32,562 nucleotides of DNA from Candidatus Wildermuthbacteria bacterium. GTDB lineage: Bacteria > Patescibacteriota > Minisyncoccia > Minisyncoccales > UBA10102. How positions within the stretch are numbered: position 1 is the first letter of the stretch; every line of letters starts with the position of its first letter. This document shows positions 2,560 to 12,517 of this stretch, one piece after another. The position numbers were made by a program, and so were the translations under genes. Below the pieces are notes generated by a model. That model was not told the origin of the DNA and made no database searches. It was given only the letters and a program-made list of their open reading frames with translations. Location: the NCBI GenBank assembly GCA_016203455.1, contig JACQMR010000009.1, positions 70,524 through 103,085 on the forward strand, written 5' to 3'.

Positions 2560-2589
2560 TTGACAAAACCTTTTTGGGTTTGCTATAAA
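2560..2589 (+). promoter_or_regulatory. Promoter of leader unit A
   Basis: TTGACA, 18-bp spacer, TATAAA, with TTTGC directly before the -10 (extended -10 type). Predicted start near 2596, about 20 nt before the leader ATG. Confidence 0.75.
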
Positions 2590-2615
2590 AAATATATCAA
2601 AAACAAGAACGCGGC

Positions 2616-2693
2616 ATGACACAGCAAAAAACGCAAAAGAATATCGCAGTCGCCATTATTGCCTCCTTTACCGGACTGGGCGGGTTTATGTAG
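2616..2693 (+). CDS. Putative leader peptide of unit A (25 codons, Ile/Val/Ala run)
   Basis: A 25-aa mini-ORF too short for the ORF track, beginning MTQQKTQKN and running through IAVAIIASF to a stop at 2691. It lies between a good promoter and a perfect 12-bp terminator hairpin, the same layout as the Phe and Leu leaders further on. The run of Ile, Val and Ala codons sits just ahead of CTGGGCGGGTT, which can pair with the 5' arm of the terminator. No Shine-Dalgarno sequence is visible. The coding call is inferred from architecture; with only moderate enrichment in any one amino acid the sensed residue is uncertain (Ile, Val or Ala). Confidence 0.5.
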   Translation: MTQQKTQKNIAVAIIASFTGLGGFM

Positions 2694-2714
2694 AAATACT
2701 CTTTGAGAAATTGC

Positions 2715-2750
2715 AAAGAACCTCCCAGCCAACGGGAGGTTCTTTCTTGT
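2715..2750 (+). terminator. Intrinsic terminator / possible attenuator of unit A
   Basis: Perfect 12-bp stem AAAGAACCTCCC / GGGAGGTTCTTT with a 7-nt loop, followed by CTTGT (the T-rich part is partly in the stem). A competing pairing of 2676-2686 with 2719-2728 (CTGGG and GG/TT segments) could form an antiterminator. Confidence 0.75.
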
Positions 2751-2868: not shown

Positions 2869-3066
2869 ATGGATTCTTTTCTCTATGAGATGACCGAGGG
2901 GCAAGAAAGAAGATGGCGTCGTGCCTGTGCGCTTGGCGATCAAGCGGTCGCCTTGCGCAAAATTGTGGCGGAACAAATTAAGGCCCGAGGGGCGGCGGTT
3001 GATTGTTCCGGCCATTTATCGGCGCAGGCGTATCATCTGCGCCGAATACGGGACAAGTTCTATTAA
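2869..3066 (+). CDS. Small protein of unknown function, 65 aa (unit A)
   Basis: I do not recognise this family. The start chosen is ATG 2869, because GGGAGG sits 5 nt ahead of it; the ORF-track start at 2761 (TTG) has no such site. The protein is basic and helical in character (ERRWRRACALGDQAVALRKIVAEQIKARG), with a single cysteine, no membrane segment and no signal peptide. It is followed within 2 nt by an intrinsic terminator, so it forms a closed unit with the upstream leader/terminator. By analogy with the Leu and Phe units it may be a regulatory or ligand-binding protein, but the sequence itself shows no known domain. Confidence 0.6.
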   Translation: MDSFLYEMTEGQERRWRRACALGDQAVALRKIVAEQIKARGAAVDCSGHLSAQAYHLRRIRDKFY

Positions 3067-3108: not shown

Positions 3109-3136
3109 TTGACATTGCCTCTTGCGCCTGTATAAT
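3109..3136 (+). promoter_or_regulatory. Consensus promoter of leader unit B
   Basis: Perfect TTGACA and TATAAT hexamers with a 16-bp spacer. The predicted start falls at about 3143, directly at the ATG of the following mini-ORF (leaderless). Confidence 0.85.
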
Positions 3137-3143
3137 TCCAATT

Positions 3144-3230
3144 ATGATGCGAAATCAAACAAAGTGGTTTATCTCTTATCATATGAGACCCAAGAGACGG
3201 GGCCTGTTGTTTGATGCGCGGAAGTTTTAG
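3144..3230 (+). CDS. Putative leader peptide of unit B (28 aa)
   Basis: Mini-ORF beginning MMRNQTKWFISYHMR directly behind a consensus promoter and followed by a terminator hairpin. It contains the aromatic cluster WFISYH, so an aromatic amino acid could be sensed, but there is only one Trp, and the pairing that would act as antiterminator (GGGGCC at 3199-3204 with GGCCCT at 3267-3272) is short. The predicted transcript would be leaderless. It may alternatively be a short untranslated RNA. The evidence is weaker than for the Phe and Leu units. Confidence 0.4.
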   Translation: MMRNQTKWFISYHMRPKRRGLLFDARKF

Positions 3231-3264
3231 GTATAGCTTGGAAGATTTCTTTACGCAATCAGCG

Positions 3265-3299
3265 GCGGCCCTTTCCCAAGAGGGGTCGCTTTGTTTTTT
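3265..3299 (+). terminator. Intrinsic terminator / possible attenuator of unit B
   Basis: Stem GCGGCCCTT / AGGGGTCGC (9 bp with two G-T pairs) followed by TTTGTTTTTT. Confidence 0.75.
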
Positions 3300-3414: not shown

Positions 3415-3591
3415 ATGTGCTACGATTTGTATGAGCCCGGGCTGAATAGGGATCAACAACTCGCCGCATGTCCCAAGGGCATGTGGGACGGGCGGTGGAA
3501 TCCCGCGCCGCGCGCGCGGGGGGAGGAGGGCAAGGTTGGGGAGCCCCTGACCGTGCCGGTCCCAACCAAAGAGGACTACTGCGCGTTGTAG
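3415..3591 (+). CDS. Small protein of unknown function, 58 aa (unit B)
   Basis: Not a family I recognise. The frame is open from 3334, but ATG 3415 is preferred because GGAGAAAAAGC precedes it with good spacing; starting at 3334 would add 27 residues. The product (MCYDLYEPGLNRDQQLAACPKG...) has three Cys, three Tyr and two Trp and a proline/charge-rich middle, with no membrane segment. The ORF track also shows a long overlapping frame from 3468 that merges into the M20 peptidase; that part is an artefact of an open frame upstream of the peptidase start. A terminator-like hairpin follows at 3607. Coding status is probable, function unknown. Confidence 0.45.
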   Translation: MCYDLYEPGLNRDQQLAACPKGMWDGRWNPAPRARGEEGKVGEPLTVPVPTKEDYCAL

Positions 3592-5418: not shown

Positions 5419-5456
5419 TTGACATTGTTGTTTGGTGTTGATAGTGTACTAGTACA
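5419..5456 (+). promoter_or_regulatory. trpR-like promoter with overlapping TrpR-type operator
   Basis: TTGACA at 5419, 17-bp spacer, TAGTGT at 5442. The -10 overlaps a perfect 12-bp palindrome TGTACTAGTACA (5445-5456) that abuts the ATG. The ACTAGT core is the one used in E. coli TrpR operators. The predicted transcript is leaderless. Confidence 0.75.
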
Positions 5457-5789
5457 ATGGCAAAAGGAGAAAAAGATGGTTGGCGCGGGGAAGAACAAAA
5501 AGAATCGCAGAAAGACAAAAGAGCCGAGGAGCTCGTTGGGGTAATCCAAAAGATTGCCATCAATAAGGAGCTCTTGAGGGAGTTTTTGATAGATCTTCTT
5601 TCTCCGGCGGAGTATCGCGAGTTGGGAGTGAGGTGGCAGATTGTACAGCAATTGAACCGAGGGGTTTCCCAGAGAGATGTGTCTGAAAATCTGCGCGTAG
5701 GCATAGCAACCGTAACCCGCGGTTCTCGTGAACTGGCAAATCCCAAAGGGGGGTTTAGAAGAGTTTTGAAGATATTGGAGAAAAAATAA
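5457..5789 (+). CDS. trpR: TrpR-family repressor
   Basis: 110-aa protein whose residues about 48-95 match the Trp repressor core: LLSPAEYRELGVRWQIVQ, then the helix-turn-helix QRDVSENLRVGIATVTRGS. Residues equivalent to E. coli TrpR Arg54, Arg84 and Gly85 (here R59, R88, G89) are kept and Thr44 is Ser49, so tryptophan binding looks possible; this separates it from the YerC/YecD relatives that lack GIATxTRGS. The N-terminal 25 residues are charged and probably disordered. It reads out from a promoter overlapped by an ACTAGT palindrome, suggesting autoregulation. No trp biosynthetic gene is in the window. Downstream lies the four-codon ORF MQGW. Confidence 0.88.
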   Translation: MAKGEKDGWRGEEQKESQKDKRAEELVGVIQKIAINKELLREFLIDLLSPAEYRELGVRWQIVQQLNRGVSQRDVSENLRVGIATVTRGSRELANPKGGFRRVLKILEKK

Positions 5790-5978: not shown

Positions 5979-6005
5979 GTTGCCAACCTGTTTTGGGGGC
6001 GACTT

Positions 6006-6248
6006 ATGCAGTACCCATGTCCACATTGTGGCAAGGCAATGCGGTATATGCAGGGTTCTTTTGGATTATATTTCCATTGTTCTTGCGGGCAAGAGGTGTA
6101 TGGGGAGGGAACGCCTCAAGAAGGGTCAAAGCGCGGGCCGCGCTTTGATTGCGATAAGCCAAAGAACAGCTCTAACCCGCCCCCTGATTTTAGCAGGGTT
6201 CGTGTCGCAAGGGGGACGGCGCGAACAAGCAGAAAAAGTCATTTGTAG
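6006..6248 (+). CDS. Small zinc-ribbon protein, 80 aa
   Basis: Start ATG 6006, chosen because the conserved-looking zinc ligands begin at once (MQYPCPHCGKAM) and a promoter ends at 5978; the track start at 5916 would place the promoter inside the gene. CPHC and CSCG (at about residues 5-8 and 25-28) form a four-cysteine zinc-ribbon-like site; the C-terminal half is low-complexity and basic (ARGTARTSRKSHL). No enzyme motif and no membrane segment. It stands in a unit of its own, the stop codon lying at the first base of the terminator stem. Function unknown; nucleic-acid or protein binding is the usual role of such ribbons. Confidence 0.65.
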   Translation: MQYPCPHCGKAMRYMQGSFGLYFHCSCGQEVYGEGTPQEGSKRGPRFDCDKPKNSSNPPPDFSRVRVARGTARTSRKSHL

Positions 6249-6277
6249 GGGCGGCAATATATAACCGCCCCGTTTTT
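6248..6277 (+). terminator. Terminator of the zinc-ribbon gene
   Basis: GGGGCGG / CCGCCCC stem, 10-nt loop, GTTTTT. Confidence 0.85.
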
Positions 6278-6279
6278 AT

Positions 6280-6308
6280 TTGACAAAAAATTTGAGGTTT
6301 GCTAGGAT
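6280..6308 (+). promoter_or_regulatory. Promoter of the Phe attenuator unit
   Basis: TTGACA, 17-bp spacer ending TTTGC, TAGGAT. Predicted start near 6315, 5 nt before the leader ATG. Confidence 0.8.
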
Positions 6309-6319
6309 TATTTTACAAC

Positions 6320-6394
6320 ATGAAACAGTCCAATCGCTTTTGCTTTTATTTCTTTTTTACCGGCCCCGCGAAGAGCCAGGACTTTTTGATGTAA
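6320..6394 (+). CDS. Phe-rich attenuator leader peptide (24 aa)
   Basis: Mini-ORF ATG 6320 to TAA 6392-6394, absent from the ORF track because of its size. It contains RFCFYFFFT, i.e. five Phe codons and one Tyr codon within seven codons (6338-6358), and a sixth Phe near the end: 6 Phe of 24 residues. This is the pattern of the pheA leader of enterobacteria. It is followed by a 12-bp terminator and then by a prephenate-dehydratase/ACT-like gene, a Phe-pathway family. A ribosome stalled at the Phe codons would leave 6371-6383 free for the antiterminator; one reaching the stop would cover it. Initiation is probably leaderless, as no SD is present. Confidence 0.85.
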   Translation: MKQSNRFCFYFFFTGPAKSQDFLM

Positions 6395-6454
6395 CAGCAA
6401 CATCTTGAATCTAGTCCCCGGCCTCTTTGTATAAAGAGGCCGGGTTTGTTTTTG
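6371..6454 (+). promoter_or_regulatory. Phe transcription attenuator (antiterminator and terminator)
   Basis: Terminator: perfect 12-bp stem CCCGGCCTCTTT (6417-6428) / AAAGAGGCCGGG (6433-6444), 4-nt loop, then TTTGTTTTTG. Competing antiterminator: AAGAGCCAGGACT (6371-6383) pairs with AGTCCCCGGCCTCTT (6413-6427) through AAGAG/CTCTT, CC/GG and GGACT/AGTCC, capped by an inner GATGT/ACATC hairpin. The two structures share the terminator 5' arm and exclude each other, the classical attenuation design. A low-Phe state should allow read-through into the downstream gene. Confidence 0.83.
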
Positions 6455-6579
6455 TGGAGAGAATGGTTTTTTGGCGGCAGTCCTTTGATTTTAATCGGGG
6501 TTGCCTCCAGGAAATCACGAGTAATCCTGGCGCTTTCAAAAGCGAGAGTTCTTTTATAACTGGAACAAGAGGAGTATCT

Positions 6580-7470
6580 ATGGTTATTAAAGTCGGGTTC
6601 CTGGGACCAATGGGCAGTTATAGCGAGAAAGTGGCGCGCGATATGGCGAGGCATCCTGAATCTTCGCAATGGGTTGAAATTGGGACAATCCCGGAGGTTA
6701 TTGAAAATGTTGCCACGGGTCTGGTTGGCGAGGGCATTGTTCCGTTGCGTACGGCATACGGAGATGTGCCGGAAACATTGGACGCTTTGCATCGGGCCGT
6801 TGTTGGCATGGGGAGCCAGGGCGGGAGCATCTTCATCACTGGATACTCCGACAGAACCATTAAATTTTGGCTCGGAGGACTCCCGGGGGCAACTTTGGCT
6901 GACATAGCAGAGGTTGTAACAAAGCAAGAAGCGGTCCAGGCATGCGCTTCCGAAATCAGTCGCTTGGTGCCTGGCTATGCTCCGGTTTATCAGGCAAGTA
7001 CCGCGCTTGGAGCGCGTATGGTTGCCACCAGTGGGCATAGAACACGGGCCACGCTTTGCTCATTGGAAGCACTCCATGAAAACGGCTTGGTTCCATTGCT
7101 GTCCTCGCCGATTATTCGGGTGACAAGTTTCATCCGTGTCGGGCCGCGCCGTTACGCAGGGGCGCAATACGACGAAAGCGCCGTAATGGTCCGAGTTCTG
7201 CAGGATCGTCCAGGGATCCTCAAGTCCATAGGTGAGGCCGTGGATCCCCTGAATCTTGTGGACTTCTCTGTGCTAAAAAATCGCCTTGATGTTGGCGACA
7301 AGATGGCACAGGTTGTGTTTCTCCTGCGGATTAAGGCGGGAGTTAGGGAGGCCGAACTCGTCGTGGAGTTTTTGCGGGCAATGTTCCGGGTGAAGGAGGA
7401 GCTTTTTGGAGTTCCCGAGGATTTGCGGTCGTTGGTCACGAACCTCGGCAGTTATCCGGTATTGCTCTAG
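6580..7470 (+). CDS. Prephenate dehydratase/ACT-like protein with lost catalytic motifs
   Basis: 296-aa protein from ATG 6580 (AGAGGAG 5 nt upstream; the track start at 6427 lies in the terminator). Residues 1-190 follow the PheA dehydratase domain: GFLGPMGSYSEKVA, GIVPLRTAYGDVPETLDAL, a VTKQEAVQAC...ASTALGA stretch, and VTSFIRVG. The normal ENS of the PIENS motif is RTA (57-59) and the Thr-Arg-Phe motif is Thr-Ser-Phe (182-184), so dehydratase activity is doubtful. Residues about 200-255 form an ACT domain (VRVLQDRPGILKSIGEAV), although the ESRP Phe-site motif is not kept. It sits under a Phe attenuator and ends before its own terminator. I infer a phenylalanine-responsive regulator derived from PheA; an active but divergent enzyme cannot be excluded. 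Confidence 0.8.
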   Translation: MVIKVGFLGPMGSYSEKVARDMARHPESSQWVEIGTIPEVIENVATGLVGEGIVPLRTAYGDVPETLDALHRAVVGMGSQGGSIFITGYSDRTIKFWLGGLPGATLADIAEVVTKQEAVQACASEISRLVPGYAPVYQASTALGARMVATSGHRTRATLCSLEALHENGLVPLLSSPIIRVTSFIRVGPRRYAGAQYDESAVMVRVLQDRPGILKSIGEAVDPLNLVDFSVLKNRLDVGDKMAQVVFLLRIKAGVREAELVVEFLRAMFRVKEELFGVPEDLRSLVTNLGSYPVLL

Positions 7471-7483
7471 TATTCGTTTCATT

Positions 7484-7511
7484 AAGAGCGTTCAAAAAAC
7501 GCTCTTTTTCT
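7484..7511 (+). terminator. Terminator of the Phe unit
   Basis: Perfect 9-bp stem AAGAGCGTT / AACGCTCTT followed by TTTC. Confidence 0.88.
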
Positions 7512-7946: not shown

Positions 7947-7975
7947 TTGACATTCTTTTTCGTTTTTGCTATACA
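7947..7975 (+). promoter_or_regulatory. Promoter of the Leu attenuator operon
   Basis: TTGACA, 17-bp spacer ending TTTGC, TATACA. Predicted start around 7982, about 5 nt before the leader ATG. Confidence 0.85.
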
Positions 7976-7986
7976 TATCGCATAGT

Positions 7987-8061
7987 ATGATTTCTTCACA
8001 GCGAAACAATCTGTTGTTGGGATTGTTGCTCCTCTTGAATACGGGGAGTGTTTCGCGTTGA
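7987..8061 (+). CDS. Leu-rich attenuator leader peptide (24 aa)
   Basis: Mini-ORF ATG 7987 to TGA 8059-8061, not in the ORF track. The core NNLLLGLLLLLN contains eight Leu codons in nine positions (CTG, TTG x5, CTC x2; 8011-8037). This is a leuL-type leader. The Leu run ends exactly where the antiterminator arm begins (8037), so a ribosome starved for Leu-tRNA would stall with that arm free, while one finishing at the stop would cover it. The downstream cistron is a leucine-binding domain and the operon ends in a tRNA-Leu(CAG), which reads the CTG codon present in the leader. No SD is visible; initiation is probably leaderless. Confidence 0.9.
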   Translation: MISSQRNNLLLGLLLLLNTGSVSR

Positions 8062-8125
8062 AGAGCAGGCAGATAGGCCATATTCTTTAAACGCACGCAC
8101 TCCCCGATTCAATCGGGGAGTTTTT
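8037..8125 (+). promoter_or_regulatory. Leu transcription attenuator (antiterminator and terminator)
   Basis: Terminator: ACTCCCCGATT (8099-8109) / AATCGGGGAGT (8111-8121) with a T-run TTTTTG; in practice an 8-bp ACTCCCCG/CGGGGAGT stem with a 7-nt loop. Antiterminator: 8037-8059 pairs with 8090-8110 as GAAT/ATTC, CGGGGAGTG/CACTCCCCG and GCGTT/AACGC, 18 bp in all with a one-base bulge and one small internal loop. The CACTCCCCG segment is shared, so the structures exclude each other. Confidence 0.88.
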
Positions 8126-8237
8126 GTTTGTTTCGACGATTGTATATTGGGGAAAGTGAAATATACAATCGTCGGCACATTAACAACAAAATGAAAAAAA
8201 AGGAGAATGCTTTGGGTGCCGAAAGCAAAATTGTACT

Positions 8238-8657
8238 GTGAATGCGAGGACGGTTTTTTCCTGGGGTCGCGCAAGCTATTCTGGCGGCGATGGAGATGAC
8301 ATCCACACAGCTACCATACAATTGATTCGGGACGGGAAGGAGTACACTGAAGCCGCAGTGGGCAATGGCCCCGTGGACGCCTTGTGCAGGGCCATTGACC
8401 GTGTTGTGGGCGAACATTGTACTGTGGGCAATTTTACTGTTCGGGCTATGGATAAAGGAGTGAATTCCATTGGCCTGGTAGTCTTGCATGTTGAAAGAGA
8501 CGGCAAGATTTATCCCGGGCGCGGCGAATCTCACGACATTATCATTGCCAGCGGAAAGGCGTATTTGAATGCCTTGATGTTGGCGCTGTCGGCCGACGGG
8601 GAACAAGAAATTATTATTCCCGTCGTGCTGGGCGTAGCACACACCCCCATGAGTTAG
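8238..8657 (+). CDS. Stand-alone LeuA allosteric (LeuA_dimer) domain
   Basis: 139-aa protein matching only the C-terminal regulatory domain of 2-isopropylmalate synthase, the domain that binds leucine. Diagnostic stretches are TATIQLIRDGKEYTEAA, GNGPVDALCRAIDRVVG, FTVRAMDKGVNSIG, and GRGESHDIIIASGKAYLNAL. There is no TIM-barrel catalytic part before it. The start is uncertain: GTG 8238 is the only usual start in frame and overlaps the TGA of a 16-codon ORF (8191-8241) as GTGA, which could give translational coupling; AAGGAG at 8200 is too far to serve it. It follows the Leu attenuator and is 5 nt from tRNA-Leu, so both are probably co-transcribed. Likely a leucine sensor or a modulator of another protein; the partner is unknown. 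Confidence 0.87.
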   Translation: MNARTVFSWGRASYSGGDGDDIHTATIQLIRDGKEYTEAAVGNGPVDALCRAIDRVVGEHCTVGNFTVRAMDKGVNSIGLVVLHVERDGKIYPGRGESHDIIIASGKAYLNALMLALSADGEQEIIIPVVLGVAHTPMS

Positions 8658-8662
8658 ATTGT

Positions 8663-8761
8663 AGGGCGGTAGCTCAACCAGGCAGAGCGCCGGGTTCAGA
8701 GCCCGGAGGTAGCCGCATTCTAATGGCTGTATTATCGGTTCAAATCCGATCCGCCCTACCA
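8663..8761 (+). tRNA. tRNA-Leu (anticodon CAG)
   Basis: Class II tRNA: acceptor AGGGCGG / CCGCCCT, D arm GCTC...GAGC, anticodon stem CCGGG / CCCGG with loop TTCAGAG (anticodon CAG at 8697-8699, reads CUG), long variable arm with AGCC/GGCT stem, T arm ATCGG-TTCAAAT-CCGAT, discriminator A and encoded CCA. It starts 5 nt after the LeuA-domain stop, and no strong promoter is seen between them. Confidence 0.95.
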
Positions 8762-8773
8762 AGAATTAAAACC

Positions 8774-8807
8774 ATGGCCTATCTGATAGATAGGCCATTT
8801 TCTTTTG
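8774..8807 (+). terminator. Terminator of the Leu operon
   Basis: Perfect 11-bp stem ATGGCCTATCT / AGATAGGCCAT with 3-nt loop, then TTTCTTTTG. Confidence 0.88.
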
Positions 8808-12247: not shown

Positions 12248-12517
12248 ATGATGTCCAGGGTGTTCTTTCTGGTTCAGGTGAAAATCGGGCAGAATATGGC
12301 GGCTTTGGAGGATATTCGGAGATTGCTCCAGAGCCATAATTTGGAAGGGCCGGATGTTGTGTCTGGTCCGTATGATATTATTGTTGCGGTATTGTTGAGT
12401 GAGATGATGGCAATGGAAGACATAGGCCGTTTGAGAGAAGCCATTGAAACGGCCCGCGGAGTTTCACGCGTCATTCCTTGTATTTCTTACTCCCCCGTGC
12501 TTTCGCCAACGGGATGA
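12248..12517 (+). CDS. Stand-alone Lrp/AsnC-type RAM domain protein
   Basis: 89-aa protein consisting only of the ligand-binding domain of Lrp/AsnC regulators (RAM, AsnC_trans_reg): a first strand RVFFLVQVKIGQN, helix ALEDIRRLLQSH, the signature VVSGPYDIIVAVLL and the last strand region VSRVIPCISYSPV. There is no helix-turn-helix. Start ATG 12248 has AGGAGG 8 nt upstream; the track start at 12188 lies in the promoter. Family members bind amino acids and assemble as dimers or higher rings; a lone RAM domain can act by joining full-length Lrp proteins or by modulating an enzyme. Closed by its own terminator. Confidence 0.88.
   Translation: MMSRVFFLVQVKIGQNMAALEDIRRLLQSHNLEGPDVVSGPYDIIVAVLLSEMMAMEDIGRLREAIETARGVSRVIPCISYSPVLSPTG

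Follow-up and report, generated by a model that had tools for sequence, protein, structure and literature searches.

What does a reading frame of only 24 codons, rich in phenylalanine and followed by a terminator, do in front of a prephenate dehydratase (PDT)-like gene in one of the Parcubacteria, and what could it still control there? The locus lies in a window (the whole stretch of DNA analysed, 32,562 nucleotides) from a genome, G000, of 519 kb at 83% completeness, in keeping with the initial annotation, which had placed it in a reduced bacterium. That annotation had also described five Phe codons and one Tyr codon within seven positions of the leader, a perfect 12-bp terminator stem, a competing antiterminator and an apparently leaderless start. 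All of these parts were recovered (Table 1). The run FCFYFFF, with its Phe/Tyr codons at 6338-6358, is read directly within the leader ORF, and so is the terminator stem: 6417-6444 reads CCCGGCCTCTTT-GTAT-AAAGAGGCCGGG, followed by TTTGTTTTTG. A duplex calculation gives the antiterminator 15 pairs and -19.0 kcal/mol. No Shine-Dalgarno sequence precedes the ATG, which stands 11 nt past the -10 box and about 5 nt past the predicted transcription start, making the leader almost leaderless. The fold of the attenuator has a z-score of -2.7, with 1 of 200 shuffles equally stable. We scanned 68.7 kb (the window plus related loci) for short ORFs that contain a run of one amino acid type and are accompanied by a TTGAC promoter and a terminator; 14 leaders were returned, against none in each of 12 dinucleotide shuffles.

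Table 1. Coordinates of the attenuators and associated genes in the window
Feature	Coordinates (strand)	Sequence	Details and basis
Phe attenuator promoter	6280..6308 (+)	TTGACA; TAGGAT	-35 at 6280-6285, 17-nt spacer, -10 at 6303-6308; read directly
Phe leader ORF	6320..6394 (+)	MKQSNRFCFYFFFTGPAKSQDFLM*	ATG 6320, stop 6392-6394, 24 codons
Segment 1 (protector)	6327..6331 (+)	AGTCC	pairs with GGACT 6379-6383, can block the antiterminator; minimum-energy fold
Segment 2, antiterminator 5' side	6368..6383 (+)	GCGAAGAGCCAGGACT	duplex energy; core pairs covary
Segment 3, antiterminator 3' side	6413..6430 (+)		overlaps terminator 5' arm; duplex energy, covariation
Phe intrinsic terminator	6417..6454 (+)		perfect 12-bp stem 6417-6428/6433-6444 plus U-tract
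PDT-ACT-like protein	6580..7470 (+)		296 aa; Pfam PDT 78.9 bits (cut-off 25.2); alignment; AlphaFold model
Leu attenuator promoter	7947..7975 (+)	TTGACA; TATACA	17-nt spacer
Leu leader ORF	7987..8061 (+)	MISSQRNNLLLGLLLLLNTGSVSR*	8 Leu in 9 codons
Leu antiterminator	8042..8106 (+)	CGGGGAGTG; CACTCCCCG	8042-8050 with 8098-8106; folding
Leu terminator	8099..8129 (+)	ACTCCCCG/CGGGGAGT	plus U-tract
Orphan LeuA allosteric (leucine-sensing) domain	8238..8657 (+)		139 aa; Pfam PF08502, 83.1 bits; without catalytic domain
tRNA-Leu(CAG)	8663..8761 (+)		6 nt past orphan LeuA gene; terminator 8774-8798
Likely Ile/Val attenuator	2560..2744 (+)	MTQQKTQKNIAVAIIASFTGLGGFM*	promoter 2560-2589, leader 2616-2693, terminator 2716-2744
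Possible aromatic attenuator	3109..3299 (+)	MMRNQTKWFISYHMRPKRRGLLFDARKF*	promoter 3109-3136, leader 3144-3230, terminator 3264-3290

We consider it very likely that 6280-6454 is a ribosome-mediated transcription attenuator that would report the supply of Phe-tRNA, a reading taken from sequence in the absence of RNA or protein data. RNA polymerase would start some 5 nt upstream of the leader's ATG, with the ribosome following behind. When Phe-tRNA is scarce, the ribosome would halt on the FCFYFFF codons and cover segment 1, leaving segment 2 (6368-6383) to pair with segment 3 (6413-6430), so that no terminator forms and the PDT-like gene is transcribed. When Phe-tRNA is plentiful, the ribosome would reach the stop codon (6392-6394) and cover segment 2, upon which the 12-bp terminator would form and transcription would end near 6454. 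Without any ribosome, segment 1 would pair with segment 2, and termination would be the default. The start of transcription, translation, stalling and readthrough, including a rise in readthrough when charged tRNA is limiting, are inferred.

Ribosome placement was modelled by masking the RNA beneath the ribosome, followed by folding. With the ribosome at the stop codon the computed probability of the terminator is 1.00, and with the ribosome at Phe codons 7 or 9 that of the antiterminator is about 0.8. For the full transcript at equilibrium, the terminator remains favoured with the ribosome at Phe codons 11-13, which means that stalls at these codons would work only kinetically. A stall at the late Phe codons favours the antiterminator only as long as the 3' arm of the terminator has not been made: in a transcript that reaches only to 6432, its computed probability is 0.98 with the ribosome stalled at any of the Phe codons tested, and 0.0 with the ribosome at the stop. 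Masking also gives the antiterminator at the early Leu codons of the Leu attenuator described below. The antiterminator and the terminator are mutually exclusive and so placed that the position of the ribosome would decide between them, a dependence that is computed.

To place the locus among its relatives, 34 attenuator leaders were collected across the order, most of them picked by promoter shape. All carry a TTGAC -35 box, with a median -10-to-ATG distance of 11 nt and a stop-to-terminator gap of 19-37 nt, and the layout of the Phe promoter matches theirs; since most leaders were selected on that shape, these promoter statistics follow in part from the selection. The leader type agrees with the downstream gene wherever that gene can be named, which is informative because the amino acid was left free in the scan. 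Intact pheA stands behind a Phe/aromatic-rich leader of the same layout in G009, G021, G233 and G057, and a variant pheA in G013. DAHP synthase follows an aromatic/Phe leader in G014 and G063, and aroA follows a Phe/aromatic leader in G083 and, with one small ORF intervening, in G064. For leuA the leader is a Leu leader (G011, G063 and G064), and for citramalate synthase in G102 it is an Ile leader. Within the family, 7 of 25 genomes carry a PDT gene, preceded by a Phe leader in G000, G009, G013 and G021; the Phe/aromatic leaders of G233, G057, G079, G063, G064 and G083 lie outside it. In G011 the contig ends within the region, and in G014, likewise one of the seven, the aromatic leader stands before DAHP synthase in place of the PDT gene. 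Neither leader nor terminator was found upstream of the intact pheA of G001, and the switch is therefore dispensable. A pattern of Phe runs, searched across the order, was not specific enough in these AT-rich genomes (217 of 243 matched, with a similar result for the backward control), and its matches were used only after a second scan for promoter and terminator. No relative was found among the viral contigs searched for related loci. Two further Phe leaders (L060, L062) are each followed by an ORF of about 300 aa without a confident Pfam match.

The leaders of the compared relatives have kept their Phe codons, and the helices show the compensatory changes for which the initial annotation had proposed to look; both are observed directly. 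Among six Phe/aromatic leaders, 5 of the 8 pairs of the antiterminator core change on both sides, with a covariation of 0.558 against at most 0.267 when the pairing is slid and no equal in 500 shuffles. In the terminator 5 of 12 pairs do so (0.283 against at most 0.156). This covariation evidence comes from six sequences only. Across all 34 leaders, the segment past the regulatory codons pairs with its own terminator arm at -15.8 kcal/mol, compared to -10.4 kcal/mol with the arms of others (0 of 20,000 permutations), and the test is conservative because related leaders share arms. The conserved Phe codons and compensatory changes lend support to the pheA-leader type of mechanism suggested earlier, which remains an inference from sequence.

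What, then, would the switch control? The initial annotation had assigned the downstream gene to the PheA/ACT family, and the homology to PDT stands; its lost motifs and the absence of chorismate synthase speak against a working PheA. The ENS, TRF and ESRP motifs have been lost: in the alignment their places are taken by RTA (ENS), TSF (TRF) and, in the ACT motif, KNR (ESR). ENS and TRF are conserved active-site motifs of prephenate dehydratase. The protein scores 57.9 bits against an NCBIfam PheA equivalog cut-off of 219, and its AlphaFold model resembles Phe-bound prephenate dehydratases (TM 0.63-0.72 in a fold search), with low confidence in the ACT part. Chorismate synthase was detected in 14 of 14 control genomes and in none of the 25 genomes of the family (G000 and 24 relatives), and only 9 of 243 genomes of the order have it. 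At 83% completeness its absence from G000 alone would be weak evidence, which does not apply to its absence throughout the family. Judged by these motifs and this pathway gap, the protein is probably not a working prephenate dehydratase here, and most likely represents a diverged PDT/ACT protein retained for another, unidentified use.

The Phe switch stood up as described, while the picture of a single attenuator did not: a sister Leu attenuator lies 1.6 kb downstream, and two weaker candidates lie upstream. The Leu attenuator precedes an orphan LeuA allosteric domain, of which the structure model matches Leu-bound LeuA, and no promoter was seen between this gene and the tRNA-Leu(CAG) behind it. 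The HMGL-like catalytic domain of LeuA is absent from G000, a weak negative for a genome 83% complete, with only PF08502 being present for 8238-8657. An intact leuA in G011 carries a near-identical Leu leader, and the two loci share 87% identity across leader and untranslated region; the coding part of the orphan shares 63% of its DNA with the G011 gene, 43% at third positions, with dN 0.32 and dS 1.80. Selection on the orphan is suggested and unproven, since these pairwise values also cover the G011 branch. Seven orphan LeuA_dimer ORFs score above the Pfam cut-off (G000, G023, G048, G195, two in G100, and G226), a count that leaves out weaker candidates in G032, G181 and G232 and a stop-containing one in G214. 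Six of the seven stand behind a branched-chain leader and terminator, six loci in five genomes and four families (f1, f25, f21, f40); for the second orphan of G100 the leader was missed by the automatic scan and found by eye, and for G226 no branched-chain leader was seen. Past the terminator, the 5' UTR of this orphan in the window contains a strong hairpin (8126-8185) that G011 shares, its stem altered on both sides.

Could the leader be something other than an attenuator read by a translating ribosome? Neither short ORFs nor terminators are rare, and a small ORF does lie upstream, which leaves room for a Phe-rich ORF that merely happens to precede the ordinary terminator of that upstream gene. 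However, the small ORF already has its own terminator (6248-6271), the shuffles gave no scan matches, and the conservation and covariation are left unaccounted for; the comparative data refute such a coincidence at reasonable confidence, and we give it next to no credence. T-boxes and metabolite-binding or protein-controlled switches govern the same genes in other bacteria, and the TrpR-like gene only 0.5 kb upstream might be taken to favour a leader under protein control. Yet no T-box or riboswitch reaches its Rfam cut-off in the window, only two tRNAs were found, and what is conserved is an ORF that can be translated, with an amino acid type that follows the pathway encoded downstream, so that a leader of this kind is very improbable.

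A different question is whether the attenuator, whatever its identity, is still in use, for it and the PDT-like gene could be relics of a lost Phe pathway that decay together without a present function. The missing chorismate synthase (0 of 25, with all 14 controls positive) and the lost catalytic motifs fit such decay, as does G079 (Gribaldobacteria), where a Phe/aromatic leader of the same kind stands before a pheA pseudogene broken by an internal deletion. Against it, the frame of 296 codons has remained open at only 19-25% identity to relatives, with second codon positions best conserved, the leader and both helices are intact, and the neighbouring orphan LeuA looks constrained, in an arrangement that recurs in other families. 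We regard a functionless relic as unlikely. For the target itself, relic or reused sensor remains undecided, with conservation and recurrence tilting towards reuse. Both nameable genes behind the attenuators of the window look like leftover sensor parts instead of working biosynthetic enzymes. Given the absent pathway genes, the lost PDT motifs and the recurrence of orphan LeuA, the attenuators have therefore outlived biosynthesis, or moved away from it. Tentatively, and at somewhat less than even chances, we suggest that near-leaderless attenuators serve Parcubacteria as sensors of amino-acid starvation, and that what they control are free-standing sensor domains without enzymatic function (the orphan LeuA allosteric domain, the diverged PDT-ACT protein) along with other small proteins, so that remnants of lost biosynthetic pathways would make up a starvation response.

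The kind of mechanism is already known; what is new is where it occurs, its nearly leaderless start and the orphan nature of its targets. With the enteric pheL-pheA attenuator the Phe system shares a Phe-rich leader peptide, a protector/antiterminator/terminator set and a pheA-type gene downstream, and it differs in being almost leaderless, in belonging to Parcubacteria, in a target without catalytic motifs and in the absence of the pathway. Its best match among 4227 Rfam families is the full-length Phe_leader model (RF01859), which scores 24.7 bits and so falls short of the cut-off of 55; no match to the Rfam Leu leader was obtained for the Leu attenuator, which resembles the Leu-rich leaders before leuA in G011, G063 and G064, whereas the window retains no more of LeuA than the allosteric domain, with tRNA-Leu behind it. 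The mycobacterial polycysteine attenuators (Canestrari 2020, cited in PMC9031893) are likewise reported to have a short leaderless ORF on which the ribosome senses a single amino acid, with Cys in place of Phe or Leu and in another phylum. A literature search that did not extend to most subscription journals or to any preprints found no description of leader-peptide attenuation in Patescibacteria. If our reading is true, tiny genomes with few biosynthetic pathways have not cost these bacteria the ability to sense single amino acids through translation, an ability now directed at proteins that have ceased to be biosynthetic enzymes. The reading would also make amino-acid-responsive genes findable from their DNA alone, and provide a testable handle on how uncultured organisms respond to a failing amino acid supply.

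The two upstream candidates are less secure. The likely Ile/Val attenuator, in front of a 65-aa ORF (2869-3066), is less clean than the Phe and Leu attenuators because its start codon lies 26 nt past the -10 box, and the possible aromatic one, in front of a 58-aa ORF (3415-3591), has mixed codons and is the weakest of the four in the window. Our survey of G000 itself used one leaderless-promoter pattern, which missed the Ile candidate at 2560, and is no census. No convincing Pfam match was obtained for the small ORFs that follow branched-chain leaders. Three of them, small helical-looking proteins of 60-79 aa beside attenuators in three genomes (L116, L013, L006), are related to each other, and the 65-aa ORF of the window is not detectably related to them. 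Elsewhere in G000 (L027, G000:C6:4023), an apparent ribosomal protein L3 gene is preceded by a very short leader-like ORF, MAVLLLL, together with a hairpin and a run of T. The TrpR-like gene (5419-5789; Pfam 64.3 bits) has a promoter that overlaps a perfect, trp-operator-like palindrome, TGTACTAGTACA (5445-5456), and self-repression is possible; a TrpR regulon could not be shown, the palindrome having a single further occurrence, which carries a mismatch and falls within what appears to be coding sequence. The small ORF at 5986-6246 carries CxxC and CxC motifs, a possible zinc ribbon, without a Pfam or NCBIfam match. Finally, 12263-12514 encodes a stand-alone Lrp/AsnC-like ligand-binding domain (14.7 bits, below the Pfam cut-off), perhaps another orphan sensor domain.
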